Shown in pieces: positions 1-20,038 of a DNA stretch of 20,038 nucleotides (position 1 is the first letter of the stretch; each line of letters opens with the position of its first letter). The notes beneath the pieces were generated by a model. That model saw nothing but the letters and a program-made list of their open reading frames with translations. It did no database searches and had not been told where the DNA came from. The position numbers and the translations under genes were made by a program. Source of the stretch: Candidatus Cloacimonadota bacterium (GTDB lineage: Bacteria > Cloacimonadota > Cloacimonadia > Cloacimonadales > WRIO01); assembly GCA_023230175.1 (NCBI GenBank), contig JALNXV010000018.1:1-20038 (forward strand). The letters run 5' to 3'.

Positions 1-138
1 AGATATGAAGGTGTTGCTTATGATTATTTAAATTATAATAATTTAGATAAAAATGAACAAAATTATATAGATGAAAATGTTTTGATTTTTTCAAATATTT
101 TTGGTGTTATAAAAGCAAGTGATTTGAACTATCAATAG
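1..138 (+). pseudogene. yaaA: Host yaaA, 5' side of the interrupted gene (also cut by the window edge)
   Basis: Frame 1 reads RYEGVAYDYLNY, then YIDENVLIFSNIFGVIKASDL, then runs into element sequence (NYQ) and stops at TAG 136-138. About 25 of 42 residues match residues around 84-125 of the intact YaaA encoded at 5914-6654, so this is the YaaA (DUF328) family. The family is known from E. coli for limiting free iron during peroxide stress. The gene's start lies outside the window. The continuation (IPDYKLKQ...) appears at 19912. Between the two halves only about one codon is missing or duplicated relative to the intact copy. The gene was therefore split by insertion, not decayed by deletion. 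The product would be a truncated protein lacking its C-terminal part. Confidence 0.88.
125..137 (+). repeat. Left terminal inverted repeat
   Basis: TGAACTATCAATA here is the exact reverse complement of 19895-19907. It lies at the point where the yaaA frame is lost. The last few bases also supply the TAG stop of the truncated host frame. It is the likely recombinase core or end site. Confidence 0.85.
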
Positions 139-257
139 TATATAACTTGAGTTAATAAATATAAAACATTGATATTTTAACATTTAAATATTAAGTTATT
201 CTTTATTTTAGTTTATATAAAATATTACTATATATAATTGAATTAGGAATTAATAAA
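138..257 (+). promoter_or_regulatory. Left-end noncoding region with promoter of the recombinase operon
   Basis: This is 120 bp without a gene between the left terminal repeat and the first recombinase. TATAAT at 233-238 is a perfect -10 box with no good -35, as is common in Campylobacterota. AGGA at 245-248 is a reasonable ribosome binding site for the ATG at 258. The sequence at 154-166 (GTTAATAAATATA and following) loosely resembles the reverse complement of the right-end repeats, so recombinase arm sites may also lie here. That resemblance is weak. Confidence 0.5.
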
Positions 258-1649
258 ATGTATAAAGAAATCAGAAATGAGTATTTTTTTACTTTATATT
301 TAAATAATGAACTATATTTCTTTCCTGAACTAGAAAATTATATCAAGATAAAAGTTCTCATTAAAAGGGTAAAACCTAATTCTCTTAAAACAATTTTATC
401 TTCTATCAAATCATTTATTATTTGGAGTTTAGCTAATCCTTCAAATTTAAATGAAGAATTGGTTTTTTATCTTTCAAGATATCTTTCAGACTGTGAAAAT
501 GGATTTGAAATTTATGATTCAATTTTTGTTGAAGAATTAAACCAAGAAGTTAACTACAAAATACTTTCTATAAATCCAAAGCAATCTACAAGTATAGATA
601 AAGATAAAGCAATTATTGAAGATTTTTTAAAATCAACTAATCAAGAGTTGTTTAAAAGTTTTAACCTTCAAAAAAACATTAAATCATTAAATTATAGTTT
701 TAAGAATTCTGTACATGATGGATATGGATTGAGAATGGGGTCTCTTGCCCAAAAAGCATTTGCTAATGATAGTTCTATTATTCCATCAAGAAATAAATCC
801 TTGGGAAATGATTTTAAATCTTTCCCACATCAATTATTTAATTCTTTACTTGAAATATCATCAACAAGAGAAAAACTTATTTATCTATTATGTGGTGCTT
901 GTTCAGCAAGAATTTCACAAGCACTTAATTTAACTTTATATGATTTTGATTATGAAAATAAACATGTATGGTTGATTGATCCTAGAAGTAATGACCAATT
1001 AGGAATACATGGAATAGGTAGAAAAACTTTTTTACAAGATGTTTATAATATTGATGCAGCAAAAGATAAACCACATTCTAATATTGGATTCAAAGCTCCT
1101 ATTCCTTTACGATTCAAGAATAGAATACCACTATATTGGATTTCAGATATATATAGAAACTTATTTTTCGATACTTTAGCAGAGTATAAATTCTTACCCG
1201 AAAGCTCAAGAATACCAAAGCATCCTTTCTTTTTTGTAACAAATAGTGGTGCAAGATTAACTCCGCAACAAGTGCATGTTACATTTACAGCTCATTGTGA
1301 AAAATTAAAAAAATTTTTCCCTGAAAAAGCAAATAATCTTGATGGTTTAGGATTACACTCTTTGAGACATATGTTTGGAGTTATGATGGCTACATTTCAA
1401 GCCAAAATATTAATGAATAAAAAAGATTTAAAATATAATATTCCTATGGACCAGATTAAAATCATTACAAAAGAAGCAATGGGGCATAAAAGTTTATCTT
1501 CAACTGATGTATATTTTAATAGACCATGGCATCTTGATATTGAATTAGGAGAACATATTAATACTTTATATGACGAAATGATGAAATCAATGAGTTTAGA
1601 ACAATTGCAGGAGAAATATGATGGTAAAAGACTTACGAAGCGAAAATGA
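258..1649 (+). CDS. Tyrosine recombinase, first gene of a GMT-like trio (GmtY-like)
   Basis: This 463-aa protein carries the phage-integrase catalytic set in its C-terminal half. R218 lies in CGACSARISQALNL (box I). H367-S-L-R370-H371 is box II. GH410 and the nucleophile Y419 lie in GHKSLSSTDVYFNR. The first 180 residues should be the arm/core-binding part; the segment around residues 35-55 looks like the SAM-like N-terminal domain. It should cut and rejoin DNA at the island ends, forming a 3'-phosphotyrosine. It is longer than phage integrases (usually 330-420 aa) and matches the size of first-position recombinases in trio elements. The start is supported by AGGA at 245-248 and the -10 box at 233. 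Its end overlaps the next gene by 32 nt, implying coupled translation. The recombinase call is secure; the GmtY assignment is from memory of the gene layout. Confidence 0.9.
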   Translation: MYKEIRNEYFFTLYLNNELYFFPELENYIKIKVLIKRVKPNSLKTILSSIKSFIIWSLANPSNLNEELVFYLSRYLSDCENGFEIYDSIFVEELNQEVNYKILSINPKQSTSIDKDKAIIEDFLKSTNQELFKSFNLQKNIKSLNYSFKNSVHDGYGLRMGSLAQKAFANDSSIIPSRNKSLGNDFKSFPHQLFNSLLEISSTREKLIYLLCGACSARISQALNLTLYDFDYENKHVWLIDPRSNDQLGIHGIGRKTFLQDVYNIDAAKDKPHSNIGFKAPIPLRFKNRIPLYWISDIYRNLFFDTLAEYKFLPESSRIPKHPFFFVTNSGARLTPQQVHVTFTAHCEKLKKFFPEKANNLDGLGLHSLRHMFGVMMATFQAKILMNKKDLKYNIPMDQIKIITKEAMGHKSLSSTDVYFNRPWHLDIELGEHINTLYDEMMKSMSLEQLQEKYDGKRLTKRK

Positions 1650-2214
1650 TAATTTAAAAGAGTGGAGAAATAAAAAGAAAGCTCTTACTGAACAGTTGTT
1701 ATCAAGAGCTATTCAGGAATTAAAAAGCCTTAATGCAAAGATTAATCAAAAAAATGTATGTGAAATGATGGAAAAATTATCAACATCTGAGGATAAAAAA
1801 TTTGATGCAGTAATTACTCCATCTGCAATTTCAAAAAATGAAGTTTATAAAAATATGATTTTAGAAGCAAATGAAAAATCAAAATTCAATAATATTAAAA
1901 ATGAGAAATATAAAATAGATGGGGATAAACAATTTGAAGTTTTTAAATTAAAAACTATTATCGCAAAACAAGAAGCCAAAAATAAAGAACTTGAAGCAAT
2001 AATTAAAAGAGCTAACATTCAAAATAATAGTTCTTTGCAAATTCAAAAAGCTAATAATATAGATTTCCAAAGTATTTTAAAAGATTTAGTAAATTTTGCA
2101 AGACAAGAAGGTATTGCTTTTTTAGATAAAGATATGAATTTGATTACTGAGTCTGAACATCAAGTTTTAATATCATCACAAATTATTAAACTATTAAATC
2201 TAGGAAATTCTTAA
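1618..2214 (+). CDS. Small coiled-coil accessory protein of the recombinase trio (GmtX-like)
   Basis: This is a 198-aa charged, Lys- and Glu-rich protein lying between two tyrosine recombinases. Residues 1-45 form a basic helical segment (EWRNKKKALTEQLLSRAIQEL). Residues about 100-130 are a clear coiled coil (FEVFKLKTIIAKQEAKNKEL). I see no enzymatic motif, no membrane segment and no classic HTH. AGGAG at 1609-1613 supports initiation at the ATG ATG at 1618/1621, inside the end of the upstream gene. Its stop shares one base with the next start (TAATG at 2212). The middle gene in trio elements (GmtX, CDS2 of strand-biased elements, or TnpC in Tn554-type operons) is also a small accessory protein. 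A role in recombination or end recognition is inferred from position only. Confidence 0.7.
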   Translation: MMVKDLRSENDNLKEWRNKKKALTEQLLSRAIQELKSLNAKINQKNVCEMMEKLSTSEDKKFDAVITPSAISKNEVYKNMILEANEKSKFNNIKNEKYKIDGDKQFEVFKLKTIIAKQEAKNKELEAIIKRANIQNNSSLQIQKANNIDFQSILKDLVNFARQEGIAFLDKDMNLITESEHQVLISSQIIKLLNLGNS

Positions 2215-5200
2215 TGGCTAAAAATACAACTTTTGGAAAAAAGCAAATATTAGAACTAATTGAAATATTAAAAAAAGAAGGTGTTAGTTCTACTAGTTTT
2301 TACGAACTTGCTCAAAATATGGATAAATATTTTCCTAAACACAATAAAACTACCAAACAGTTGATAATAGCTATGCGAAATTTCTCTAAATTATTTCAAG
2401 ATGCTAATATTAATATTTATGTTTATAGGGATAACAATCATAAAAGAGGAAAAGAGTTAGTAGCAAAAGCATTAAATTATATTAAAAATGAATTGCAAAA
2501 GGACATTATAACAGGAAAAGAATTACAACAAATTTTACTAGAAAAATACAATTTCAAATTACATACAAATAGTACCTTTTTAAAAAACTATAAGGTAAAA
2601 GAAATGATGGATAAATTATCTTTATCTTTTAATACTAATGATAAACAAAAAATGAAAAAATTAACTATTTTAGAAAATTTTTCTAAATCAAAAGTTGTTC
2701 AAGAATTAAATTTAAAAAATGAAAAAATTGATATTCCAACTCTATGCAAATACCTTGAAGGAAAAGTTTCTATAGCTTCTTTATACAAATATTCAAATGA
2801 AATCATTAAAATGAATATCCCTATTACTTCTAATAAGATATTAAAAAATGCTAATTATGATGAAAAAGATATTATAAATAAAATTGCTTCTAATCTTAAA
2901 GAAAAAGGAATATATGAGATTTTTGCTGGAGAATTTTCTAAATTAGGATATCAATATTCTTTTCCTAATTTAGGGTATAAAAAAATATTAGAATATAAAG
3001 ATTATATTCAAGAAATTCATAATATAAGAATTTTATCTAAAGATTTATTTGATGAAAAAAAATTAGAAAATACTCTTGAAGATAATATAAAATATCTTAA
3101 TAAAAATAATAATACAAAAATCTCATATTCAAAAGTTCTACCATTATACCATAATGATGATAGCGAGATTATTGCTGTAGAAGAATGTGAAAAAGATTTA
3201 GAAATTTTCTGGATTAAATATCTGAATGAATATTTAGCTTTATTGTCAGAAGACAGAATAAATGTAACCAACGAATTGTTTGATAAAAATAATAATTTAA
3301 AAATAAATACTGATAATAAGAAAATATACTTTTTATTGGATGAAAAATTACATATAAAAGATTTAAAATTAAAAGACATTGTTCATTTAAGCAGAAAAAA
3401 TGTTTTAGCCAATGATAAAATATATGGTATTCATAGACAAAACATGTTGTTAGGATTTTTAATTTTCTTATATATAAAAAAACAAATACTATTTTCTTTT
3501 GAATTTGTTTATAGAAATATGTATGATTCCAAAAAAGTCCAAAAAGAGTTATCTCTATTTGAATCAGAATTTTTTATTAATAAAAGTTACCAAGATGCTT
3601 TAAAGAGGAATATTTTAAATGATAAAGAAATAAAAATCAAAAGATTATTTTATTTATTTTGTTTTAGCCTGAATAATTTTAATACTAAGATACAAACAAT
3701 TACAGATGAATATTTTAATAAAATAAATATGTTTGATGCAACAAAAGCTAATTTGATAAAAAAAATTTTTAATAAATTGGGTGCAAATATAAATATTTTT
3801 AAAGATACAAATCAATTTACAAGTGATTATTATTTTTATATGAAAAATAAAAACTATCAAGATTTCATAACCATATGTAATGAACATATGAATAGAAAAG
3901 TTAAATTAAATCAAACATCAATACCAAAAACTTATTATAAAAGTACTAGTTCAAAAATAGTTAACTTTTTAGAATTTGTAGATAAATTTCATACAAATAT
4001 GATTCTAAATAAAGATAATTTAACAAAACTATTTGATTATCCAAACTCAAAAATATATACTTATCAAGAATATATTAATAGTTTAGAAATATCAGATAAT
4101 ACAAAAAGTAGCAAAATTTCAATCTTTTTGGAAATATTTTCTAATACAATTGGATATGAAAATGTTTTTACAAAAGGAAAACTTCCAAATTACAATATTT
4201 CAGTACCTTCAAAAAGAGAAGCAATTGAAGATGAAGAAATCATTTATAAAATAGATGATATCGTAACCAACAGACCACCTAAAAGTAATTACTTCAATAA
4301 TCACAAAGTTTCTTTAAATACTACATGGTGGAAATATTTTGATAGAGTTGTTCCCTTTGAGCCATTAATTATTAAATTACATTTAAGAATTCCTACAAGA
4401 GGGGCATCGTTAAGATTAATTGACAGAGATTCCTTATTGGTAATAGGGGATAGAGGTAATATAAAAGGATTTCATTTTGTTAGTGATAAAAACAAAAAAA
4501 GAAAAGAACCTTTTATTGTTCCTAATATTTGGAAAAGTGAGTTATCTTTTTTATTTAATTTAATAGAATATAATAAAGCTTTTTTCCCATTTTTAAAAAA
4601 ATATTATCCTGATGATATAACATTAAAAGATGGTATTTTACCATTATTTCCAAATGCAGACGGTACAGGAGCATATACAGAAAGGCAGCATATGCTTTAT
4701 TGGACAAAAGTGTTAATTCAAGCTCAAATGGAATTTAATCAAGAGAATAAAGATAAATTTCTAGTTTACAGCGAAGAAGTGGATTTACCAAAAACACAAG
4801 AAGAATTAGATAATTTAACAATTGGTGAAATAAATACTTTTAAGAAAAAATATGACATTCACTCATTAAGACATACAGGAATTACTAGAAATATTAAAGC
4901 AGGAATGCCTTTAGAATTGGTAAGAATGCTAAGTGGGCATAGTGGTTTTAATACAATTTTAACTATTTATTACCATATAAATCAAAAAGAATTAGTTAAT
5001 AATTGGCTAAGTAAGCATAATATTGATATTACAGAAAATATAAATATGCATGAAGTAAGTCAATTATTTATAAAAAAAGAAATATTAAAAAATAATATCA
5101 AATCAAAAAATCCAGAAATTATTTTAGAAATATTAAATAATTATAATTTCTTTAACCCACAAAATAGAGAACTAACTTCGAAAGATGAAATTACATTAGC

Positions 5201-5939
5201 AAAAATTTCAGAGTCTGAACCAGCATATTGGAAACCTTTAAGAACAGGAATTTGTACAAAAACTCAATGTCCTTCTGAAATAATTGGAAGATGCAGTTTG
5301 TGCCCATACTTCATAACAAATTATATGTTTACTCAAGAAATTGGTTTGGAAATGCAATTATCAATGGCTAGAGTAAAAAAATATAGTGAGATGATAATTA
5401 AAAATCGAGAAGAAGGAAATAATCAAAATAATTCAAAATTAAAACAGCAGATGAACAATGAAATTGAAGATTTTACAGCTTGGTTAGAGATATTATCATT
5501 GGCAGATTCATCATACCATGATTCAAAGTATAAATTAACTAATCAAGAAAATGATACTTCCTTGATTAGCTATTCAAATCAAATGGAAGACTCTATTTTT
5601 GCTTTAATACAATCTCTTAATATTGAACATGGATATCTAGAGATATTATCTGAGACTTACAAAAGAAAAATATATGATAATGAAACAGTAGTGGATTTAA
5701 CTAACATCATGGCAAATAAAATTATAAAATATACTATAAATAATAATTCTTATAAAGAAATTGAAGATTTAAATAACGAAGAAATTATAAAGTGGTTTTT
5801 ACCAACTTATCAAAAGATATCAATTAATTGGCAAACAAATGAAAAAAACAAACAAGAACTTGAAAATTTATTGAAATTACTTGAAAATAAAAAATTAAAA
5901 TTGGAGTATAAAAATGAAAATCCTATTCTCACCAAGTGA
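2214..5939 (+). CDS. Giant tyrosine recombinase with Cys4 cluster (GmtZ-like)
   Basis: This 1241-aa protein has its recombinase core late in the chain. R729 lies in RIPTRGASLRLID, H883-S-L-R886-H887 is box II, GH909 follows, and Y919/Y920 lie in GFNTILTIYYH. After the core, C1014-x4-C1019-x7-C1027-x2-C1030 looks like a zinc-binding cluster, and residues 1195-1241 are a Lys/Glu-rich helix. The first 700 residues have no motif I recognise; residues 85-135 look like a small basic DNA-binding region. It starts at TAATG and overlaps the next gene, yaaA, by 26 nt. It is very large for a tyrosine recombinase but fits the third gene of trio elements (VPA1269/GmtZ type). It probably acts with the 463-aa recombinase at the island ends. 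The family name is inferred from architecture. Confidence 0.82.
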   Translation: MAKNTTFGKKQILELIEILKKEGVSSTSFYELAQNMDKYFPKHNKTTKQLIIAMRNFSKLFQDANINIYVYRDNNHKRGKELVAKALNYIKNELQKDIITGKELQQILLEKYNFKLHTNSTFLKNYKVKEMMDKLSLSFNTNDKQKMKKLTILENFSKSKVVQELNLKNEKIDIPTLCKYLEGKVSIASLYKYSNEIIKMNIPITSNKILKNANYDEKDIINKIASNLKEKGIYEIFAGEFSKLGYQYSFPNLGYKKILEYKDYIQEIHNIRILSKDLFDEKKLENTLEDNIKYLNKNNNTKISYSKVLPLYHNDDSEIIAVEECEKDLEIFWIKYLNEYLALLSEDRINVTNELFDKNNNLKINTDNKKIYFLLDEKLHIKDLKLKDIVHLSRKNVLANDKIYGIHRQNMLLGFLIFLYIKKQILFSFEFVYRNMYDSKKVQKELSLFESEFFINKSYQDALKRNILNDKEIKIKRLFYLFCFSLNNFNTKIQTITDEYFNKINMFDATKANLIKKIFNKLGANINIFKDTNQFTSDYYFYMKNKNYQDFITICNEHMNRKVKLNQTSIPKTYYKSTSSKIVNFLEFVDKFHTNMILNKDNLTKLFDYPNSKIYTYQEYINSLEISDNTKSSKISIFLEIFSNTIGYENVFTKGKLPNYNISVPSKREAIEDEEIIYKIDDIVTNRPPKSNYFNNHKVSLNTTWWKYFDRVVPFEPLIIKLHLRIPTRGASLRLIDRDSLLVIGDRGNIKGFHFVSDKNKKRKEPFIVPNIWKSELSFLFNLIEYNKAFFPFLKKYYPDDITLKDGILPLFPNADGTGAYTERQHMLYWTKVLIQAQMEFNQENKDKFLVYSEEVDLPKTQEELDNLTIGEINTFKKKYDIHSLRHTGITRNIKAGMPLELVRMLSGHSGFNTILTIYYHINQKELVNNWLSKHNIDITENINMHEVSQLFIKKEILKNNIKSKNPEIILEILNNYNFFNPQNRELTSKDEITLAKISESEPAYWKPLRTGICTKTQCPSEIIGRCSLCPYFITNYMFTQEIGLEMQLSMARVKKYSEMIIKNREEGNNQNNSKLKQQMNNEIEDFTAWLEILSLADSSYHDSKYKLTNQENDTSLISYSNQMEDSIFALIQSLNIEHGYLEILSETYKRKIYDNETVVDLTNIMANKIIKYTINNNSYKEIEDLNNEEIIKWFLPTYQKISINWQTNEKNKQELENLLKLLENKKLKLEYKNENPILTK

Positions 5940-6654
5940 AACAAAATTTAAAGGTGGAGAAACTAAAAAAATTAACAAAAACAGTTTTCTTTTTCCAGAA
6001 TTATTTGAAGAAAGAATAAAAGTAGTAAATTTATATCAAACTTTTATTAATAATGCATCAAATGGAAAATTAGAAAAATTATTTGGAACTAAAAAAGAAG
6101 ATATGATTGATTATTATAAAGGAAATCTTCTAGAAAAAGAAATTATGAAAGTTATAGAAAGATATGATGGAGTAGCTTTTGACTATCTAAAATATTCAAC
6201 TCTAAAAAATATTGAAAAGACATACATTGATGAAAATGTAGTTATCTTTTCGAATTTAATGGGTCCAATTCTTGCAGGTGATATGGGAATTCCAGACTAT
6301 AAGTTAAAACAAAATGAAAAAATTGGAGATTTTGAATTAGAAAATTTTTATAATGAAAAATTTTCTAATTCATTAGATAATTATCTTAAAGATGATGATA
6401 TAGTTGATTTAAGAGCGGGATTCTATGAAAAATTTTATACAATAAAGAAACCATATACAACAATGAAGTTTATAAAAGATGGTAAAGTTGTTAGCCATTG
6501 GGCAAAAGCATATAGAGGTATAATTTTAAGGTTATTAGCTCAAAATAATATTCAGAGTATAGATGAATTAATGAATATAAATATTGATAATCTTTCAATT
6601 AAAGAGATAAAAAAACAGAAGTTAAAAACAGAAATTATTTATAATATAAAATAA
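5914..6654 (+). CDS. yaaA: Element-borne intact YaaA (DUF328) protein
   Basis: This is a full-length 246-aa YaaA-family protein starting MKILFSPSETKFKGG, with the family regions VAFDYLKY, FSNLMGPILAGD, IPDYKLKQ, DDDIVDLRAGFY and VSHWAKAYRG all present. YaaA in E. coli limits intracellular unincorporated iron under hydrogen peroxide stress. The start is preceded by GGAG at about 5902 and lies inside the end of the giant recombinase gene (26-nt overlap), so it is translated as the fourth gene of the mobility operon. It is about 60% identical in protein to the host yaaA halves at 1-124 and 19912-20038 over the parts visible. It is therefore a separate lineage, not a recent duplicate. The likely job is to replace the gene the island destroys; a direct role in recombination is the main alternative. 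Confidence 0.9.
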   Translation: MKILFSPSETKFKGGETKKINKNSFLFPELFEERIKVVNLYQTFINNASNGKLEKLFGTKKEDMIDYYKGNLLEKEIMKVIERYDGVAFDYLKYSTLKNIEKTYIDENVVIFSNLMGPILAGDMGIPDYKLKQNEKIGDFELENFYNEKFSNSLDNYLKDDDIVDLRAGFYEKFYTIKKPYTTMKFIKDGKVVSHWAKAYRGIILRLLAQNNIQSIDELMNINIDNLSIKEIKKQKLKTEIIYNIK

Positions 6655-6684
6655 GTAAGTATAAATGAACATTTAAAATTGCTA

Positions 6685-6776
6685 TTTTGTAAAGTAAATA
6701 CATAATTATAAAATAATTAAAATTGTAAAGTTTAGATATAATTTAGTATCTAAACTTACATTATAGAGGTTACAAA
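6685..6776 (+). promoter_or_regulatory. Res-like inverted repeat and promoter upstream of the serine recombinase
   Basis: A perfect 11-bp inverted repeat, AAGTTTAGATA (6728-6738) and TATCTAAACTT (6747-6757) with an 8-bp centre, is the size of a serine-recombinase crossover or subsite dimer. TATAAT at 6737-6742 falls inside it, so bound recombinase would block its own promoter. TTGTAAAGT occurs twice (6687-6695 and 6723-6731), and TTACAAAA at 6770-6777 is its partial inverse. AGAGG at 6765-6769 is the ribosome binding site. Confidence 0.5.
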
Positions 6777-7400
6777 ATGAGAACTCCCCTATTTTATGGT
6801 TATGCAAGAGTTTCTACTTCTTTACAATCTCTAAAAAATCAGAGACATGAAATTTTTGAATATGCTCACAAAAATAATATGTTAATTGATAAGATTATTG
6901 AAATTGAGATTTCAACAACTAAAAATAAAAAAGAGAGATTAATTGATGAAACATTAAATAAATTAAATAGAGGTGATGTTCTTATTGTTACAAAACTTGA
7001 TAGATTAGGAAGAAGCACTGTCGAAGTCCTTCAAATAATAGAAGATATAAAATCAAAAGGAATTATTTTACATATTATTAAGGATGGTTTGATAATTGAC
7101 TGCAATATTTCAAATCCTATTAATGATATGTTACTTACTTTATTAAGTGGCTTTTCACAAATGGAAAAAAATTTTATTAGTGAAAGAACAAAATCAGCAT
7201 TAGCACAAAGAAAAGCACAAGGTGTTAAACTTGGTAGAAAAAAAGGCACTATTGTGAAATCAAAATATGATGAACATTTAGATACAATCAAAGAATTATT
7301 AAATAAAAATGTTTCAATATCTAGCATAAGTAAAATAATTGGTATGGGTACAAGGCAAAGTTTAAATAATTATATCCAGTCTAGAAAGTTAAAAGAATAA
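6777..7400 (+). CDS. Serine recombinase of the resolvase/invertase family
   Basis: This 207-aa protein has the catalytic serine S13 in YGYARVSTS, followed by LDRLGRST, the E-helix region MEKNFISERTKSALAQRKAQG, and a C-terminal helix-turn-helix at about 168-205 (ISSISKIIGMGTRQSLNNYI). Length and order match small resolvases/invertases of the Tn3 TnpR and Hin type. It makes paired staggered breaks through 5'-phosphoserine links. It has its own promoter and a res-like inverted repeat upstream (6728-6757). A 70-bp gap with another promoter separates it from the cargo operon. It may resolve dimers or cointegrates of the island, or invert or delete a segment, but I see no second copy of its site that would show which. 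It could also be a leftover of an older element nested here. Confidence 0.92.
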   Translation: MRTPLFYGYARVSTSLQSLKNQRHEIFEYAHKNNMLIDKIIEIEISTTKNKKERLIDETLNKLNRGDVLIVTKLDRLGRSTVEVLQIIEDIKSKGIILHIIKDGLIIDCNISNPINDMLLTLLSGFSQMEKNFISERTKSALAQRKAQGVKLGRKKGTIVKSKYDEHLDTIKELLNKNVSISSISKIIGMGTRQSLNNYIQSRKLKE

Positions 7401-7410
7401 TATGCTAAAA

Positions 7411-7465
7411 TTGACATTATTTGTCAGTAGATATTTATACAATTACACCAAATAATTTAAAAGGT
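7411..7465 (+). promoter_or_regulatory. Promoter/operator of the methylase-like cargo operon
   Basis: TTGACA at 7411-7416 overlaps the palindrome TGACA-TTATT-TGTCA (7412-7426). TACAAT at 7438-7443 is a -10 candidate and AAGGTG at 7461-7466 the ribosome binding site for the ATG at 7471. The stretch 7412-7464 aligns without gaps to 12694-12746 in front of hsdM, with about 36 of 53 bases identical by hand count. It is a likely binding site for the WYL protein encoded at 11741-12703. Confidence 0.5.
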
Positions 7466-7470
7466 GAAAA

Positions 7471-9318
7471 ATGAGAAGAAATATAAATGATGCTATAAAT
7501 AGTTTTTACTTACCAAAAAACATTTCGTATCAAATTATTATTAATTTATTAATTTTAAAAACTCTTTCAAAAAAAGAATTTTACTATGGTTTAGATTTTA
7601 GAAGACTATGGGATAATTTAATTAATTCTATTGAAAAAAAAGAATACTTTATATATGAGTATCTACCGTCTTTACAAAATAACAAAACAATTGATCATAA
7701 TCTATCTTTAGTGTTTAAAAATATGCATATACCTTTTACAGATATTGATGATTCAGCATTTAGAAAATTTGTTGATATAGTTGAATATTTTGAAAATGAA
7801 GATATCATTGAGTTTATTGCTAATCTATCAAATGACTTTAAATTAGGGTATCTTAAAACACTTGATGTCCAAATTCAAAAAAATATCATCAGATTATTAG
7901 ATATCAAATTAGACGATAAAGTTTTAGATTTAAATCTTGCTGGAAGTAATTTTTTATCTTTACTAGGTAATGACTCTCATAACAATGTTGGATTTATTCA
8001 AAGCTACAATGATTTACCTCTTAGGTATTTAGAGCTTTTATTAAGTGATAATACTCATGTAGATTTGATTCAAAATAATCCCCTCATCGAATACAATTCA
8101 AAATTGAATAACAAATTTGATGTTGTTTTTGCAATACCACCTTTTGGACAAAGAATCTCAAAATGGGATTGTGATGTAGATTTTCCAATACAAGCAACTA
8201 TGTCACATAATTTATATATTCAAAAGGCATTAAACTCTTTAACTTATGATGGAAAGTGTGCTCTTATAGTTCCTGATAGCTTTTTGAATCAGACGAATAA
8301 AGAATCAGATAGTGCAAGAAGATACATTTTCGACAAATTAGTATGTGTTATTAATTTAGGTGCAGTTTTTAAACCTTATGCAGGTGTAAATGTAAGTTTA
8401 CTAATTCTTAAAAATGATAATTACAACAACGAAATTTTAATGGTTAATTTTCAAGATAATAAACAATTTCCAATAGATGACTTTAGTAAATTTGTTGATA
8501 ATGTTGAAGCTTGTAGATTTGAACTTGATAGACTTGATTTAGATGATATAAAAAATTCTATTCTAGTTTCAAAAGAAGAAATTCTACAAAATAACTATAT
8601 ATTAGATTTTAAGAGATATCAACCTTTAGAGGAAATTATTACACCAATTCAACATCCTGAAGAGTTAATAAAAAAAGTAGAAGTGGGTGCTAAATTATTA
8701 CTTGAATCGATTTCAAATATTAAAAAAGTTAGAAACAATTTAGCTCATGGACAAATAAGTTTACAAACTTTTCAATTAGATCAAATAGCATCAATTCGTC
8801 TAGGGAAACCTCTTCCAAAAGATAATATTGAAAATGGTGAGATACCTTTTGTAAATATAACTGATATCACTAGATGTACAACAGATTATATTGATTCATC
8901 AGAGGTGATGATAAGTGAAGATTTTGCATATCAGAACAATTTAACAATTGTAGAAGCAAATACAATTTTACTCTCTGTTCGTGGAACTATTGGAAAAGTG
9001 ATTTTAGCAGGTTCTAAAATTGCTATTTCTCCTACATTAGTTGCTATAGAAGTTGACATTAATAAAGCAAAACCATATTTTGTGTATCAATGGTTTTTGA
9101 ATAAAAAAGAATACTTTGAAGCAAATGCAGTTGGAGCAACAATAGCATCTTTAAGTACGGCATTTATCAAAGAGCTAAAGATAGATTTACCACCAATTGA
9201 AACACAAAACCAGTTTGAAGAATACAAAAATGATTTAGATAATATCAAACAAACTTTGTCTAAATTAAATGATGAAAATCAAAACTTATCAAAATCTATC
9301 TTTAACCAGTTTTATTAG
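7471..9318 (+). CDS. Type I methylase-like/specificity fusion with degenerate catalytic motifs
   Basis: This 615-aa protein contains, in order, a helical N-terminus (1-140), an N6-adenine methylase-like Rossmann region (145-390), a helical linker (395-428) and one HsdS-type target-recognition domain (about 430-580, with GTIGKVILAG and LPPIETQNQFEEYK) ending in a coiled coil. The methylase shape is clear (LVCVINLGAVFKPYAGVNVSLLILKN matches the HsdM region after motif VIII). However, motif I is LDLNLAGSNFL (152-162) instead of the usual DPxCGSG, and motif IV is IPPF (222-225) instead of NPPF. Methylation is therefore doubtful, and it may only bind a DNA sequence. It heads a four-gene operon with an ATPase, a PLD-fold protein and a WYL regulator. 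A single recognition domain suggests a homodimer on a palindromic site. RNNLAH at 421-426 resembles a HEPN motif but sits in a short linker. Confidence 0.8.
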   Translation: MRRNINDAINSFYLPKNISYQIIINLLILKTLSKKEFYYGLDFRRLWDNLINSIEKKEYFIYEYLPSLQNNKTIDHNLSLVFKNMHIPFTDIDDSAFRKFVDIVEYFENEDIIEFIANLSNDFKLGYLKTLDVQIQKNIIRLLDIKLDDKVLDLNLAGSNFLSLLGNDSHNNVGFIQSYNDLPLRYLELLLSDNTHVDLIQNNPLIEYNSKLNNKFDVVFAIPPFGQRISKWDCDVDFPIQATMSHNLYIQKALNSLTYDGKCALIVPDSFLNQTNKESDSARRYIFDKLVCVINLGAVFKPYAGVNVSLLILKNDNYNNEILMVNFQDNKQFPIDDFSKFVDNVEACRFELDRLDLDDIKNSILVSKEEILQNNYILDFKRYQPLEEIITPIQHPEELIKKVEVGAKLLLESISNIKKVRNNLAHGQISLQTFQLDQIASIRLGKPLPKDNIENGEIPFVNITDITRCTTDYIDSSEVMISEDFAYQNNLTIVEANTILLSVRGTIGKVILAGSKIAISPTLVAIEVDINKAKPYFVYQWFLNKKEYFEANAVGATIASLSTAFIKELKIDLPPIETQNQFEEYKNDLDNIKQTLSKLNDENQNLSKSIFNQFY

Positions 9319-9327
9319 GAGTTTAAA

Positions 9328-10803
9328 TTGCTATCATATTCGTTAGAAAATTTTAAATCATTTGGCTCAAAACAAAAAATACCACTAAAACCAATCACTC
9401 TTATCTATGGTGCAAATAGTTCTGGAAAATCAAGTGTTATTCATGGATATTTATTTATAAGTGAGTTATTAAAGACTGGTAAATGTGATTTAAGTAGCTT
9501 TACAATAGGCGGTGAACTTTTAGATTTGGGTGGATATAAACAGTATTTACACAAAAAAGAGTATGCAACAAGAAATTTAAATCTAGAAGTTGAACTAGAA
9601 AACTATAAACTCATTTTAGAAATATCTGTAGATGGCGAAAATAGAAAACAGCTGCAAAGAAATGCTTATTGGTTGTCGTTAAGTGTTCAAAATATAGTAG
9701 AAAACTATAGCTATAAGTTTCAAAGAAACAAATCAACGAGTGAAATAATACTAGAACATTTTAATGATGAGCCAATAACAAAAAAAGAACAAAAAGCTAT
9801 TATAGAATTAGAAAATATCATCTCTTCACAAATCAAATTAGACCAAATTGAGCGAGGCTCAGTTATAGCTAATAGCTTAAATGAAATTTTTCAAATAATA
9901 AACTCAAGTTACAAAAATATTATTTATCTAGGACCAATCAGATCATACCCAACAAGAGATATATCTCTAACAAATGAATCATCTGAAGATATGGATTATA
10001 ATGCTTGGAATATAGTGAAAAAAGATGCGAATGTAAGAGATAAAGTAAATAAATGGCTTGGCGGTAAAGATTCTAAACTAAAAACTGGTTATGAACTATC
10101 TGTAAAAAAATATTTAGATCCAAAAGATTATCTAGAGAGTTTATTAAATATTATTTCAAATCCAGGTGCTTATGAACATGACCTCAAAGAGTTGTTTGAG
10201 CTTGAAGATGAACAATTTTATGATTATCTTGAAGATTTTACAAATAAACTACTTGAAGAATATGATGCTCTTAAAGAAGATAGACTCATATCATATATCG
10301 CAGATAAATTCTCAAAGCAAACTATTGAAGAACTTATAATTGAAGACTTAAATAACGATAGAACTACTGTAAGCCACAGAGATATTGGAGTTGGTATCAG
10401 TCAAGTTTTACCAGTCCTTGTAAGTGCTTATGCATCTAAAAATGCAGTTATAGCAATAGAGCAGCCAGAACTTCATCTTCATCCAGCACTGCAATCAGAA
10501 ATTGCTGATGTTTTTATTGAAACAGCACTAAAAGAAAACAACAATACTTATCTAATAGAAACCCATAGTGAACATTTGCTTCTTAGAATAATGAGAAGAA
10601 TAAGAGAGACAACAAATGGTGAATTACCAGATGGCATAACACCAATTACTCCAAATGATGTGCAAATTCTTTTTGTTATGCCTGCTCAAAATGTGTCGGG
10701 TTCTGTTATTAAAAAAATAGACTTAAATTATGAGGGTGATTTGATTGATGAATGGCCAGGTGGCTTTTTTGAAGAAGGATATAACGAAAGGTTTGGAGTA
10801 TGA
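9328..10803 (+). CDS. AAA/ABC-type ATPase with C-terminal DUF3696
   Basis: This 491-aa ATPase has Walker A at G28-ANSSG-K34-S35, an ABC-signature-like GVGISQVLPVL at 354-364, Walker B with catalytic glutamates in VIAIEQPELHLHP (374-386), and a switch histidine in ETHSEHLL (H413). The tail EGDLIDEWPGGFF is the DUF3696 signature. These are SMC/OLD-like ATPases often found in defence operons, where ATP binding gates a partner effector. The start is TTG, chosen because MLSYSLENFKSFG is the typical N-terminus of the family and AGGAG lies at 9317-9321. It begins 9 bp after the methylase-like gene and overlaps the next gene by ATGA. There is no TOPRIM or nuclease domain, so any effector activity must come from a neighbour. 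The ATPase call is very sure; the role is inferred. Confidence 0.92.
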   Translation: MLSYSLENFKSFGSKQKIPLKPITLIYGANSSGKSSVIHGYLFISELLKTGKCDLSSFTIGGELLDLGGYKQYLHKKEYATRNLNLEVELENYKLILEISVDGENRKQLQRNAYWLSLSVQNIVENYSYKFQRNKSTSEIILEHFNDEPITKKEQKAIIELENIISSQIKLDQIERGSVIANSLNEIFQIINSSYKNIIYLGPIRSYPTRDISLTNESSEDMDYNAWNIVKKDANVRDKVNKWLGGKDSKLKTGYELSVKKYLDPKDYLESLLNIISNPGAYEHDLKELFELEDEQFYDYLEDFTNKLLEEYDALKEDRLISYIADKFSKQTIEELIIEDLNNDRTTVSHRDIGVGISQVLPVLVSAYASKNAVIAIEQPELHLHPALQSEIADVFIETALKENNNTYLIETHSEHLLLRIMRRIRETTNGELPDGITPITPNDVQILFVMPAQNVSGSVIKKIDLNYEGDLIDEWPGGFFEEGYNERFGV

Positions 10804-11738
10804 TTTCAAACTTTGTATTAACACCAAATGTCTTTGAAGATAGAAACAATAAACAAAACATTATAAGTGTTATGAAAGATTCTATCGCAAATCCAATATT
10901 TGTTGTAGAGTATCAAGGAGCGAACTGGAGTAAAACTATTCTAGTTCAATATATTAGTAAAATCGAGCAAAAAAACAGAGATAGATTTCAAGTACTGCTC
11001 AAAAATCTAAAAGACCAAAAAAAAATCATCAAACAAACTAATCATAGTCTTAGTCTGAATACTTCAGATGATTGGATGAAGGTGTCAGAAAAAGCATTAG
11101 ATTCAAATTTAATAGATTTTGTCATAACAGATGATGAGCTAAAAGATAGTTATAAATCAAGTTTAAATGAAAATTGCGAATCAATTAACGATATCATAGA
11201 AGAAGATACAAAATGGGATACCATTAAAAATAAAAGAAGTTTGACATTAACAAAAACAAAATCAAGTTTGTTACCTTTTTTTAATAATTTTATGCCTTAC
11301 TCTTCAAAGCTTGTTATCATTGACCCATATTTTGAATATATAACTAAATATCAAAACTTTCTAAGACTATGTTCGGAAATCATGGGTAATCGAGTGAATT
11401 TTGCACAAAACAGTTGCAAAATAGAGATTCACACAAGATATGATGATAGAAGTAACTACAACTTTCAAACTTTTTTAACAACATTAAAAAGTCAATATAA
11501 GCACACTTATACAGTTTACATCTGGGATGATTCAAAAGTAGATGCTCATAAGTTTCACGATAGGTTTATTATGACTGAAAGCATAGGATTTTCAGTTTCA
11601 CATAGCTTTGATATATCAGACGGTTCAAACCAAGAAACAACTTGGAGCTTTTTAGATAAAGAAACGCAATCAAAGCATATGAATAACTATAGAGAAGAAG
11701 ACCCACTTTTTATGTTACATAATAAAATAGAGGTGTAG
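10800..11738 (+). CDS. ATPase partner with C-terminal PLD-fold (MIT_C-like) domain
   Basis: In this 312-aa protein, residues 1-160 are an N-terminal region I do not recognise. Residues 165-312 read like the MIT_C/phospholipase-D fold: IIDPYF (173-178), IEIHTRYDD, then H253-D-R-F-I, followed by IGFSVSHSFDIS. In eukaryotic MITD1 this fold binds membranes and has no catalytic HKD pair. Here HDR replaces HxK, so nuclease or lipase activity cannot be assumed. The ATGA overlap with the DUF3696 ATPase makes a complex likely, with this protein as the sensor or effector arm. No signal peptide or TM segment is visible. Family assignment is by eye and moderate; the partnership is inferred from gene order. 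Confidence 0.6.
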   Translation: MISNFVLTPNVFEDRNNKQNIISVMKDSIANPIFVVEYQGANWSKTILVQYISKIEQKNRDRFQVLLKNLKDQKKIIKQTNHSLSLNTSDDWMKVSEKALDSNLIDFVITDDELKDSYKSSLNENCESINDIIEEDTKWDTIKNKRSLTLTKTKSSLLPFFNNFMPYSSKLVIIDPYFEYITKYQNFLRLCSEIMGNRVNFAQNSCKIEIHTRYDDRSNYNFQTFLTTLKSQYKHTYTVYIWDDSKVDAHKFHDRFIMTESIGFSVSHSFDISDGSNQETTWSFLDKETQSKHMNNYREEDPLFMLHNKIEV

Positions 11739-11740
11739 AG

Positions 11741-12703
11741 TTGAACGACATTCACGATACATCCCTAGAAACTTTAAAACTGTTAAAATACCTTATAGAA
11801 AATAATTCTATTTGCACAAATCAATTAAATACAATTTTAAATAATGATAAATCAGAACGCTCAAACTTGCGACAATTCAAAACAATCCAATACTTTTTTA
11901 AAAAAGAGTTTGATGTAGATATCTTTAAAAAAAGCTCAAGAGGTTGTTATGAAGTTGTAAACAAAGAAGTGCTTAGACAATCATTGAATTTTACAGATAA
12001 AAAAGAGCTTCTTAGCTATGTAAAGATTTTAAAAGAGATACTTCCAAATTATTATGAAAAACTTGATAGTGATTTAAAAAATGAGATAGAAAATAGCTCA
12101 CAAAAATCAAAAGAGCTGTATTATTTTCACAACAACCCGCTTGAAGACTTTTCAAACAATCATCTTTTAAAAGAGATAGAGCAAAGCATCACAAAAAAAA
12201 GAAAAGTAAATTTTACATACAAAAACATCAACTATACAGATGCAAAACCACTTCAAATAGTATTTATGGAGGGCAATCTTTATCTTGCAATACTTACAAA
12301 TGAAGAGCTAAACGGTGGCTTTAAATTTCTTAGAATCAACTACATCCAAGAGTATAAAGCTTTAACAATCGAGTATAACGAAACAGCAACCATCTCAAAA
12401 GCTTATGAGTTTTTAAAAGAGTTTCAAACACCTTTTGCATGGTTTGATAGTGAGTATAAACAAGTAAAAATCTCTATCTCAGAGTATGGAAAGGAGTTTT
12501 TCAAACTCAAAAAACACTTACCATCACAAGAGTACAAAGAGCTACCTGATGGTACAGCACAGCTTACATACTATGTAACCAACTACATGGAGATAGTGTT
12601 ACTTGTAAAAAAATGGTTTCCACATCTAAAGATAATCGAACCCGTAGAGTGGAAAGAGAGATTTAGAAGTGAGATAAAACAATATCTTGAAAATGACAAA
12701 TAA
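11741..12703 (+). CDS. WYL-domain transcriptional regulator
   Basis: This 320-aa protein has an N-terminal helical, probably winged-HTH region (1-80), a WYL domain at about 150-215 (KVNFTYKNINYTDAKPLQIV, then EGNLYLAILT, FKFLRINYI), and a WCX-like C-terminal domain (about 225-320). LYL stands in place of the name-giving WYL. WYL regulators often sit in or next to defence operons and repress them until a ligand, thought to be a nucleic acid or nucleotide signal, is bound. The start is TTG with GAGGTG at 11730-11735. The next ATG would remove most of the HTH region. It begins 2 bp after the upstream stop and ends inside a TGACA-N5-TGTC palindrome (12694-12708), which also occurs before the first gene of its own operon. 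This placement suggests it controls both cargo operons. Confidence 0.85.
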   Translation: MNDIHDTSLETLKLLKYLIENNSICTNQLNTILNNDKSERSNLRQFKTIQYFFKKEFDVDIFKKSSRGCYEVVNKEVLRQSLNFTDKKELLSYVKILKEILPNYYEKLDSDLKNEIENSSQKSKELYYFHNNPLEDFSNNHLLKEIEQSITKKRKVNFTYKNINYTDAKPLQIVFMEGNLYLAILTNEELNGGFKFLRINYIQEYKALTIEYNETATISKAYEFLKEFQTPFAWFDSEYKQVKISISEYGKEFFKLKKHLPSQEYKELPDGTAQLTYYVTNYMEIVLLVKKWFPHLKIIEPVEWKERFRSEIKQYLENDK

Positions 12704-12750
12704 TGTCTATGAATATATTTATAATTACAGCATAAAACATAAAAGGAAGA
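12694..12750 (+). promoter_or_regulatory. Promoter/operator of the hsdMSR operon, related to the 7411-7465 leader
   Basis: The palindrome TGACA-AATAA-TGTCT lies at 12694-12708, overlapping the stop of the WYL gene. TATAAT is at 12720-12725 and AAGGAAG at 12743-12749 is the ribosome binding site. The palindrome-to--10 distance is the same 22 nt as at 7412-7443, and AATTACA directly around or after the -10 is shared. The operon can be transcribed independently of the upstream cassette. Confidence 0.5.
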
Positions 12751-12755
12751 AATAA

Positions 12756-14219
12756 ATGATAACGAACGAACTTAAAAACCAAGTAGATAAAATCTGGGAA
12801 ACATTCTGGACAGGAGGTATCTCAAACCCTCTAACAGTTGTTGAACAGTTTACATTTTTGATTTTTATCAAAAGCTTAGATACAGCACAAATCAAAATAG
12901 ACAAAAAGAAAAAGCTTGATAAAAATGTAAAAGATATATTTACAAAAGAGTTCGAACACCTAAGATGGCAAAATGTATCTTCTAAAGCAGCCGAAGATAT
13001 GTTTAGCACATTTCAGACAGAGATGTTTCCTTTTATCAAATCCCTTTCGGATGAACAATCAGCATTTTCAAACTACATGAAAGATGCATCATTTTTAATT
13101 CCTACAGCTAAATTACTGCAAAAAGTAGTAGATATGATAGATAAACTAAACCTTGAAGATAAAGATATCAAAGGTGATTTATACGAATATCTACTTAGTA
13201 AACTTGCAACTGCTGGAACAAACGGGCAGTTTAGAACACCAAGACACATCATAAAAATGATGGTTGAGATGATGCTCTCACATGCAACTATCACAAAAGA
13301 TTTTAAGATCTACGACCCTGCATGTGGTACAGCTGGATTTTTGATAAATTCTATAGAGTACATCAAAGAGCAAAGAGGTGAGATACTAGATACTCTAAGC
13401 TCAAAAGAGTTTGAGGGGTTATTTTATGGAAATGACTTTGATATCTCAATGGCTAGAATCGCATCTATGAATATGATGCTTCACTCAATAGAATCAGCTC
13501 ATATCTCAAACAGTGATGCACTAGCAAAATTTGATCTAATAGAGGAAAACAAATACGATCTAATCTTAGCAAATCCACCTTTTAAAGGTTCCCTTGACTA
13601 TGAAGAGGTATCAAAAGCTGTTTTAGATGTGGCAAAGACTAAAAAAACAGAACTTTTATTTGTATCACTCATACTAAAAGCACTTAAAACTGGTGGGCGA
13701 ACTGCTATCATTGTGCCTGATGGTGTACTTTTTGGCTCAACTACTGCACACAAAGAACTAAGAAGGGAAATAGTATCAAATCAACAGCTTGATGCTATCA
13801 TCTCTATGCCAAGTGGTGTATTTAAACCTTATGCTGGAGTAAGTACAGCTATCATCATCTTTACAAAAACAAACGGACATAAAAACGATAAAGTTTGGTT
13901 TTATGATATGCAAAATGATGGATACACTCTCAACGACAACAGAACTCCATGTGATGGAAGTGATATACCAGATATCCTAGAGAGATTTAAAAATCTTGAG
14001 AGCGAACAAAATAGAGCTAGAACTGATAAAAGCTTTTTTGTGCCAATAACTGAGATAGAAAACAACGACTACGACCTAAGTATCAATAGATACAAAGAGG
14101 TGGTTTATGAAACTATCTCTTACGATAAACCTGCAAAAATCATAGAAGATTTGAAAACTATAAACTATAAAATCACTACTGGACTAGAAGAGTTGAAAGA
14201 GTTAGTAAATGAAAAGTAA
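12756..14219 (+). CDS. hsdM: Type I restriction-modification DNA methyltransferase subunit HsdM
   Basis: This 487-aa adenine-N6 methyltransferase subunit has an HsdM_N helical domain at 5-135 (LKNQVDKIWETFWTGG), then GQFRTPRHIIKMM, an intact SAM-binding motif I D187-PACGTAGFL, and catalytic motif IV N273-P-P-F276. The VPDGVLFGS and FKPYAGVSTAIIIF regions follow. It methylates host DNA at the sequence read by HsdS and also forms part of the restriction complex. Unlike the methylase-like protein at 7471-9318, all catalytic residues are present. The start is supported by AAGGAAG at 12743-12749. The last 11 nt overlap hsdS, so the two are translationally coupled, as expected for subunits of an M2S1 enzyme. 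Confidence 0.96.
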   Translation: MITNELKNQVDKIWETFWTGGISNPLTVVEQFTFLIFIKSLDTAQIKIDKKKKLDKNVKDIFTKEFEHLRWQNVSSKAAEDMFSTFQTEMFPFIKSLSDEQSAFSNYMKDASFLIPTAKLLQKVVDMIDKLNLEDKDIKGDLYEYLLSKLATAGTNGQFRTPRHIIKMMVEMMLSHATITKDFKIYDPACGTAGFLINSIEYIKEQRGEILDTLSSKEFEGLFYGNDFDISMARIASMNMMLHSIESAHISNSDALAKFDLIEENKYDLILANPPFKGSLDYEEVSKAVLDVAKTKKTELLFVSLILKALKTGGRTAIIVPDGVLFGSTTAHKELRREIVSNQQLDAIISMPSGVFKPYAGVSTAIIIFTKTNGHKNDKVWFYDMQNDGYTLNDNRTPCDGSDIPDILERFKNLESEQNRARTDKSFFVPITEIENNDYDLSINRYKEVVYETISYDKPAKIIEDLKTINYKITTGLEELKELVNEK

Positions 14220-15414
14220 TTGGAAAAATTTACAAGATTTACTTTTCTTTCAAGAAGGTCCAGGTGTTAGAAAAAATCAGTTTAAACATACTGGTGTAAA
14301 GCTATTAAATGTTGGAAATATAAATGACAAAAAACTAAATTTAGATACTACTAGTATATTTATATCTGAAGAAGAAGCATTTGGAAAATATAGTCACTTT
14401 CTAGTAGAAGATGGAGATTTACTTATTTGTTGTTCTGGAATTGTAGTTGATAATTTTCATAATAAAATTGTATTTGCAGAAGAAAAACATTTACCACTTT
14501 GTCTAAATACAAGCACAATGAGATTTAGAACTTTAAATGAGGATATTTTAAATATTAAATATTTTTATTATTTCTTAATGACAAGACTATTTAAGGAGCA
14601 ACTTCAAAAATTAATTACTGGTTCAGCACAATTAAATTTTGGACCAAGTCATATTAAAAAAATTTTTATGCCAATTGTCAAGCTCGAAGAACAAAAACAA
14701 ATTGCAAAAACATTAGATAAAGCTCAGGAGCTGATTGACCTTAGAAAAGAGTCAATCGCAAAGCTTGATGAGTTGGCAAAATCTATGTTTATTGATATGT
14801 TCGGCGACCCTGTTAGTAATGAGAAAGGGTGGGATATTGAAAAACTAGATGATATCACTACAAAAATAGGAAGCGGTTCTACGCCAAAAGGCGGTAAAGA
14901 TTCCTACAAAAGTGAAGGTATTTCTTTAATTAGAAGTTTAAATATTCATGATAATAAATTTAAGTATAAAGACTTAGCTTTTATAGATGATGTGCAAGCT
15001 AAAGGATTATCTAATGTTATAGTAGAAAAAAATGATGTATTACTAAATATTACTGGAGCATCAGTTTGTAGATGTGCTATTGTTCCTGAAGATGTACTGC
15101 CTGCTAGAGTTAACCAACATGTCGCAATAATTAGAACTGATGAAAATGTTAATTCAAAATATTTAATGCACTTATTTATTTCTAACTATAAAGATAAATT
15201 AATGCATATCGCAACAGCTGGTGGAGCGACAAGAGAAGCATTGACAAAAGAAAATATACAAAATTTAGAAATTCCACTGCCTTCAATTGATTTACAAAAC
15301 AAATTTGCTCAAATAATAGAAAAAATTGAAGAACAAAAATCACTTTATGAGCAAGAGCTTGAAAAACTAGAAGATAATTTTCAAGCACTATTGCAACAAA
15401 GCTTTGGTGAATAG
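14209..15414 (+). CDS. hsdS: Type I restriction-modification specificity subunit HsdS
   Basis: This 401-aa protein has the usual two-half layout: recognition domain 1 at about 5-155, a central conserved coiled coil at about 158-200 (LEEQKQIAKTLDKAQELIDL, then MFIDMFGDP), recognition domain 2 at about 205-355 (starting WDIEKLDDITTKIGSGSTPK), and a C-terminal coiled coil at 358-401. Two different recognition domains predict an asymmetric bipartite target with an internal spacer. The sequence cannot be read from the protein by eye. Base composition differs along the gene. The recognition domains look more AT-rich than the central coil and than hsdM/hsdR, as expected if they were exchanged by recombination. 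It overlaps hsdM by 11 nt, and hsdR follows after 10 bp. Confidence 0.95.
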   Translation: MKSNWKNLQDLLFFQEGPGVRKNQFKHTGVKLLNVGNINDKKLNLDTTSIFISEEEAFGKYSHFLVEDGDLLICCSGIVVDNFHNKIVFAEEKHLPLCLNTSTMRFRTLNEDILNIKYFYYFLMTRLFKEQLQKLITGSAQLNFGPSHIKKIFMPIVKLEEQKQIAKTLDKAQELIDLRKESIAKLDELAKSMFIDMFGDPVSNEKGWDIEKLDDITTKIGSGSTPKGGKDSYKSEGISLIRSLNIHDNKFKYKDLAFIDDVQAKGLSNVIVEKNDVLLNITGASVCRCAIVPEDVLPARVNQHVAIIRTDENVNSKYLMHLFISNYKDKLMHIATAGGATREALTKENIQNLEIPLPSIDLQNKFAQIIEKIEEQKSLYEQELEKLEDNFQALLQQSFGE

Positions 15415-15424
15415 GAGTTAAGAT

Positions 15425-18709: not shown

Positions 18710-18730
18710 TTCAAATTTATAGGAGTAAAC

Positions 18731-19741: not shown

Positions 19742-19800
19742 TTTGATTTGTTAAGTGGAATAAATTTTTATGTATACTTGTTATAATACAATTGCTAAGA

Positions 19801-19820
19801 TATTAATTCATTTATTAAAT
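19801..19820 (+). repeat. Subterminal 20-bp direct repeat, copy 1
   Basis: Identical over 20 bases to 19874-19893, with copies 73 bp apart start to start (about seven helical turns). The flanks differ, so this is a discrete repeat. It may be an arm-type binding site for the trio recombinases. Confidence 0.7.
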
Positions 19821-19873
19821 CAATATTTAGAATAATTAATGAATATTAGTAAAGATTCATTAGTAGGTGTTTT

Positions 19874-19893
19874 TATTAATTCATTTATTAAAT
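19874..19893 (+). repeat. Subterminal 20-bp direct repeat, copy 2
   Basis: Second perfect copy of 19801-19820, one base before the right terminal inverted repeat. Its position directly against the end supports a role in end recognition. Confidence 0.7.
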
Positions 19894-19894
19894 A

Positions 19895-19907
19895 TATTGA
19901 TAGTTCA
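19895..19907 (-). repeat. Right terminal inverted repeat
   Basis: TATTGATAGTTCA is the exact reverse complement of 125-137. The yaaA frame resumes a few bases after it. The alignment of the broken yaaA to the intact copy leaves room for about one codon between GATTTG (121-126) and ATT (19912). About three bases around 19906-19908 may therefore be element-carried coupling sequence. Confidence 0.85.
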
Positions 19908-19908
19908 C

Positions 19909-20038
19909 TACATTCCTGATTATAAATTAAAGCAAGGTGAGAGTTTTAATAACTTAAAAATAGAGAAGTTTTATAGTGATAACTTTAGTAAAGCTATTGA
20001 TGATTATTTAAAAGATGAGGATATCTTAGATTTAAGAG
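19909..20038 (+). pseudogene. yaaA: Host yaaA, 3' side of the interrupted gene (runs off the window)
   Basis: From 19912 the frame reads IPDYKLKQGESF, then FYSDNF, then DYLKDEDILDLR. It matches residues around 128-169 of the intact YaaA at 5914-6654 (about 24 of 42 identical), including an unbroken IPDYKLKQ. It continues the fragment at 1-124. It has no start codon or ribosome binding site of its own in the visible sequence, so it is unlikely to be expressed as a useful protein. Confidence 0.88.

Follow-up and report, generated by a model that had tools for sequence, protein, structure and literature searches.

Integrases usually limit harm by entering at gene ends, tRNA genes or non-genic sites. 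Islands in tRNA genes also repair the gene that they disrupt (PMC4383910), and the recA mobile element (RME) of Vibrio cholerae S24 is an island in recA which carries a complete, divergent and functional recA and is described in both orientations (PMC4405046). At the locus described here the target is yaaA, and the combination seen in the RME, a split target together with a complete divergent copy on the element, is found again. YaaA of E. coli lowers the amount of iron in the cell's pool, and strains mutant for it incur DNA damage when exposed to peroxide (PMC8115020). Since loss of yaaA in E. coli is reported to give no phenotype in normal growth (PMC4834066), a cost of its loss in the hosts considered below is assumed.

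The window, i.e. the whole stretch of 20,038 nucleotides that was analysed, consists of an element with parts of a split native yaaA on either side (Table 1). A preliminary description of this DNA had proposed that an island splits the host yaaA and that a complete, diverged yaaA is the fourth gene of the recombinase operon, overlapping the giant recombinase; our analysis confirmed both proposals. The three genes before the carried yaaA, hereafter the trio, comprise two tyrosine recombinases and a small second gene in which Pfam recognised no integrase domain. A candidate ribosome-binding sequence for the carried yaaA, GGAG, is located within the giant gene. A looser version of the terminal motif, AACTATNNATA, has four matches in the window against 0.84 expected, and four were reached in 2 of 100 shuffles. 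A serine recombinase of the invertase/resolvase type lies directly after yaaA, as it does in the related element of genome G277. The cargo beyond it is defence-like, with a methylase-specificity fusion, an AAA ATPase, a phospholipase-D-like protein (weak BrxL match) and a WYL protein, and is closed by the type I restriction genes hsdM, hsdS and hsdR.

Table 1. Coordinates of the element in the window and of features in related loci.
Feature	Position	Strand	Remarks
Native yaaA, 5' part	1..126	+	truncated by window start; GATTTG at 121-126 is the native-side six-base crossover
Element	127..19905		19,779 bases between terminal motifs; inside native yaaA
Left terminal motif AACTATCAATA	127..137	+	
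Gene 1, tyrosine recombinase, 463 aa	258..1649	+	PF00589, 30.9 bits
Gene 2, 198 aa, no family	1618..2214	+	second trio gene, conserved
Gene 3, giant tyrosine recombinase, 1241 aa	2214..5939	+	PF00589, 26.6 bits (cut-off 27.1 narrowly missed); 33 homologues
Carried yaaA, complete, fourth gene, 246 aa	5914..6654	+	PF03883; 26-nt overlap with gene 3
Crossover position within carried yaaA	6280..6288	+	GATATG and extra glycine codon GGA
Serine recombinase	6777-7400		directly after yaaA
Defence-like cargo	7471-18709		includes hsdM, hsdS, hsdR
Right terminal motif AACTATCAATA, inverted	19895..19905	-	
Right-hand six CACTAC	19906..19911	+	foreign-looking footprint
Native yaaA, 3' part	19912..20038	+	truncated by window end
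Serine recombinase of G277	10583-11200		positions in composite
pSulSP element	L188 4175-16723		
G567 features	L073 2606-5572 and 17432-19999; L211 7947-8201		
Nine-base yaaA of G393	L181 1439-2173		

Related trios were sought with an alignment of 25 giants, searched against whole genomes in overlapping draws. Giants were matched in 9 of 397 genomes drawn from the phylum, 10 of 398 from the order, 5 of 104 from the G277 family, 5 of 175 from the G001 family and 8 of 228 from the G283 family; pooled, the draws gave 20 genomes with 21 trio loci, to which the plasmid pSulSP adds one. Many of the surveyed genomes are fragmentary. A scan of genome contigs found one relative and a scan of viral contigs none. 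The relatives include a Sulfurovum contig (L001) and a close giant of Aliarcobacter cryaerophilus (P0003).

Three of the surveyed genomes (G277, G001 and G675) possess a split native yaaA, a trio and an intact yaaA directly after the giant, so that with the window this holds for all four complete yaaA-site elements; as it recurs in three further complete elements, the arrangement is not a matter of chance. In the DNA fetched for the other 18 trio loci, some of it on short contigs, yaaA was absent and was not the insertion site (18/18). The pairing of yaaA with the trio gave a Fisher p of 2e-4 (4 vs 16 loci), uncorrected for kinship. The giants of the four elements are down to 34% identical and their cargo beyond yaaA differs. 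All yaaA-site elements share one recombinase clade, and the four are thus not independent gains. The expectation that yaaA would follow the trio when, and only when, the element sits in yaaA therefore held in this sample (4/4 vs 0/18), no trio with yaaA in an unrelated locus came up in the survey, and the built-in gene replacement first suggested for the island gains support. Two more loci were left out of this count because their contigs break. In G703, the last 68 residues of a giant are followed by an intact yaaA, a separate N-terminal piece of yaaA stands at another contig end, and no native yaaA was recognised; as contig ends bear two element-like pieces of yaaA, along with a giant fragment (L089, L099), this assembly may be mixed. 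In G694, found through its half yaaA, gene 1 comes next after the native 3' half and has 68% identity to the G001 gene, and the contig ends behind it.

Comparison of the carried YaaA with PF03883 placed it in the family (E 1.3e-37, 130.1 bits, gathering score 29.6), while it lies below the cut-offs of the NCBIfam YaaA equivalogs (best 79.4 vs 339 bits). A phmmer search matched it to no solved structure, a weak search since the E. coli YaaA structure 5CAJ exists (PMC4834066), and a plasmid search with YaaA returned three distant actinobacterial matches and nothing else. As the window starts and stops within native yaaA, only 42 codons of each native half are visible, of which the 5' half (1-126) is 60% identical to residues 83-124 of the carried copy and the 3' half (19912-20037) 57% identical to residues 126-167. 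The same halves are 85% (5') and 88% (3') identical to native yaaA of the G277 family. Copy number in the window's host was judged indirectly, from this family: yaaA was matched in 97 of its 104 genomes, 95 of which have exactly one copy. Across elements, the native halves show 74-97% identity to the natives that match them best, and the highest values with any carried copy are 43-67%; in the window, G277 and G675 their reading frames are open as far as the junction, with 85-97% identity to natives. The split halves thus belong to the native lineage, which speaks against the possibility, raised beforehand, of an old pseudogene beside a second host yaaA.

All four elements cut the same yaaA codon pair, in the window and G675 with the orientation of yaaA and in G277 and G001 with the opposite one. 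Read in the sense of yaaA, the six on the gene 1 side is GATTTG in the window, GACGAA in G277, GATACA in G675 and GACTTG in G001; in the latter three it codes for the same amino acids as in the nearest natives, whereas the window has D-L for the D-K of its nearest natives. At the far end the six are CACTAC (window), TTTAGA (G277) and AGTATC (G675), all unlike natives, and the right junction of G001 gave no clear six. With the window's D-L and the right junction of G001 as exceptions, this footprint may resemble the rule given for SEs, with a target-derived six at the intA end and a foreign six at the other (PMC10214605). The site had initially been read as GATTTG/TACATT in the host and as different in the carried copy; GATTTG is indeed native-side and the copy does differ, but TACATT proved to be half footprint and half native. 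The copy in the window reads GATATG-GGA-ATTCCA (6280-6294), one codon more than the split native, and its arms differ too.

The spacing between the arms of the site is six bases in some native yaaA genes and nine, with an extra glycine codon, in others. Among 47 sampled natives of the G277 family, 19 are six-base and 28 nine-base, and the idea that the glycine codon is an adaptation of the element itself was rejected on account of the latter; six-base natives make up 27/27 in the G001 genus and 26/27 in the G675 genus. The split natives of all four elements are six-base and their carried copies all nine-base, and the copy in G703 has the native six-base spacing with a changed right arm. The nine-base spacing, present in four of the five carried copies, may therefore protect them from the element's recombinases. 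Genome G393, of the genus of G675, has a nine-base yaaA that is 60% identical to the carried copy; no trio adjoins this gene, which could be a remnant or have arrived by transfer.

For the YaaA tree, 106 proteins were used: the five carried copies and 101 natives, after five of 106 native loci had been dropped for length or start codon. The gene on L181 was omitted, being the same as that on L153, and 30 of the natives of the G277 family were chosen as best matches, which biases the sample toward the carried type. One clade (100/99) unites all 27 natives from the genus of G001 and another (100/100) 26 of the 27 from that of G675, and the carried copies of G001 and G675 pair with each other (100/99) outside the native clades of both their genera. 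The carried copies of the window and G277 also pair (100/99). The five copies are not monophyletic in this tree, whose deepest split and backbone are weak. The carried copies are of foreign lineage. Sixty columns are conserved in 95% or more of the 101 natives, and the carried copies retain 57, 58, 58, 59 and 59 of them. Between the window (5871-6654) and G277, yaaA is 99.7% identical as DNA (dS 0) and the trio genes 91-95%, indicating that the yaaA block moved between elements by recombination, in a recent exchange. When the window is compared with G001, yaaA has a dN of 0.36 and the trio genes have values of 0.57-0.67, while dS is saturated or nearly so.

To look beyond yaaA, each ORF of 23 loci was compared with the rest of its own locus. 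An edge fragment together with a complete copy was found in six of them (window, G277, G001, G675, G567 and pSulSP), and no such pair was seen in the other 17, several of which are on short contigs; the proposition that every trio element replaces its target was rejected for this reason. The remaining self-matches are methyltransferase and other cargo paralogues (window, G277, G675, G703). The element of pSulSP has the order gene 1 (42% identical to that of the window), an IS21 element, gene 2 and giant, and an intact nuclease gene stands 42 nt after the giant (PF01223, Endonuclease_NS, E 2e-43). A second nuclease gene, on the other strand, flanks the element in parts: residues 18-133 are encoded to its right and residues 131-228 to its left, and each part has frame breaks. 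Parts on both sides and frame breaks indicate a nuclease gene that was split near residue 132 and has since decayed, the carried gene remaining intact.

The second case is a distant trio in G567, with a gene 1 29% identical to that of the window and a giant of 1643 aa. It lies next to the 3' portion of a mutS-like gene that is 77-85% identical to natives of its genus, and about 85 codons of the 5' part (70-93% identical) are on another contig, running into sequence with a similar ACTATT end. The carried mutS-like gene is 42-46% identical to natives, has MutS domains I, III and V and an in-frame stop after residue 801, and is far from the trio, the split being visible only on joining the two contigs. 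Restoration of the gene by in-frame fusion was considered and rejected, since the native 5' part is on the other contig, which makes this a separate carried gene. The anticipation that elements in other targets would carry those target genes was thus borne out for the nuclease and mutS-like genes. At nine loci which adjoin comM fragments (G371, G503, G239, first locus of G226, G283, G452, G192, G296 and G697) no comM copy was seen, so that replacement is not general. Giants of about 950 aa are found in comM-adjoining relatives (L019, L020, L022, L026, L072, L087 and others). Besides these nine, pSulSP and G567, the 18 other loci include seven without an assigned target (G431, G416, second locus of G226, G273, G658, G702 and G820).

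The explanation that we consider very probable is that the element replaces its target gene, breaking yaaA and supplying its own substitute at insertion. The three-gene tyrosine-recombinase operon would drive insertion at one codon pair of a conserved, normally single-copy yaaA, and with the carried yaaA as last gene of the operon, insertion would destroy the native gene and deliver the substitute in one step. The substitute, of a different YaaA lineage and mostly without the native target spacing, should be spared by the recombinases. The sequences themselves show that yaaA is split, that the element carries a yaaA and where it does so, that the site is common and used in both orientations, that the arrangement recurs, that the carried copies are of foreign lineage with conserved residues, and that two relatives in other targets likewise carry a counterpart of the gene they split. 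We infer that the carried yaaA is expressed and does the native job and that removal of the cost is the reason for its retention; the host probably keeps a working yaaA after insertion. Transcription from the native promoter could enter the operon in the window and G675 but not in G277 and G001, so expression of the carried gene should not depend on that promoter.

YaaA might instead be a fourth core recombination factor, comparable to Srap in SEs or GinD in GInts, rather than a substitute. The place of yaaA within the recombinase operon in 4/4 complete elements would fit such a role, and so would the reports that recombination in GInts (PMC5385486) and SEs (PMC10214605) cannot proceed without a fourth protein and that double-stranded DNA comes along when E. 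coli YaaA is purified (PMC4834066). However, yaaA is missing from all 18 other trio loci in the fetched DNA, a recombination role does not predict that the nuclease gene after the giant of pSulSP matches the element's own target, and the carried YaaA keeps the conservation of natives, all of which makes this role improbable.

We regard it as still more improbable that yaaA rides on the element by chance, as cargo that protects against stress, its match to the target being coincidental or a by-product of recombination there. Stress genes are common on mobile elements, and the exchange of the yaaA block between elements described above would suit mobile cargo; yet yaaA is identically placed in four elements whose later cargo differs, and the match of target and carried gene, seen also in pSulSP and G567 and hence for three targets, disfavours this account. 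If the split gene was already dispensable or a dead duplicate and the carried gene a later insertion, nothing would have been replaced. This reading, which we find scarcely credible, could draw on the native 5' half of G001, which leaves the expected frame near the junction, and on the frame breaks in both native fragments of pSulSP, but decay after insertion accounts for these, the halves in the window, G277 and G675 are open and close to natives, and the family normally has a single yaaA.

A wider and tentative reading, which we hold to be slightly more doubtful than not, is that the trio superfamily consists of "break and rescue" selfish elements, each attacking a conserved target and carrying a recombinase-resistant foreign version of it in or beside the operon, so that loss of the operon would cost the only working copy, and target and rescue gene would change together. 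The targets would be yaaA, the nuclease gene, the mutS-like gene and perhaps recA in Vibrio. If true, change of the rescue gene may be a route to new targets, and foreign alleles of housekeeping genes would spread between families. The elements studied here strike the middle of a conserved gene and come with an entire replacement for it, and target and carried gene remain paired across giants only 34% identical (yaaA) and across three different targets. This makes testable how elements afford conserved protein-coding targets, would explain foreign copies of single-copy genes, and is reminiscent of engineered cleave-and-rescue gene drives.

Gamma-mobile-trio (GMT) elements, as the names of their models imply, likewise have three genes in this order. 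Gene 1 matches the GmtY model (E 5e-12, 45.7 bits) below its cut-off of 340, the giant of L001 matches the GmtZ model (E 4.5e-7, 28.2 bits) below its cut-off of 600, and the giant of the window gave no GmtZ match; the trio recombinases thus appear to be remotely related to GMT. SEs have Srap as the fourth gene where the element here has YaaA, and Tfp homologues shorter than 550 aa are treated as truncated, compared with 198 aa for the second gene here (PMC10214605); the SEs of that report are all from Gammaproteobacteria. The window element has no tfp (>550 aa) and srap beside intA and intB, by which SEs are recognised. GInts are similar in their site specificity, a recombinase operon of four genes at one end and variable cargo, but encode three integrase-like proteins and GinD (PMC5385486), whereas the operon here combines the genes of two recombinases and of a small second protein with a copy of its target; three integrase-family proteins with GinD were not found in the window element.

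Islands in tRNA genes rebuild the gene by fusion with island sequence (PMC4383910), in contrast to the separate whole gene of another lineage here. No case of target replacement in yaaA or by a trio was found in a literature search that missed most subscription papers. The principle of replacement is already published for the recA island, on the account given in PMC4405046, and what is new, as far as our searches went, is its recurrence, the several targets and the position of the copy in or after the recombinase operon. The RME shares with the elements here insertion at a single site within a housekeeping gene, short inverted repeats at the termini, a divergent complete copy and both orientations, and differs in its target recA, its length of 32.8 kb, a recA copy at the end away from the integrase and a SOS-type promoter of its own (PMC4405046). 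The likeness described is one of arrangement, and while that account describes one island, the copy here overlaps the recombinase operon and its pairing with the target recurs across genera and targets.
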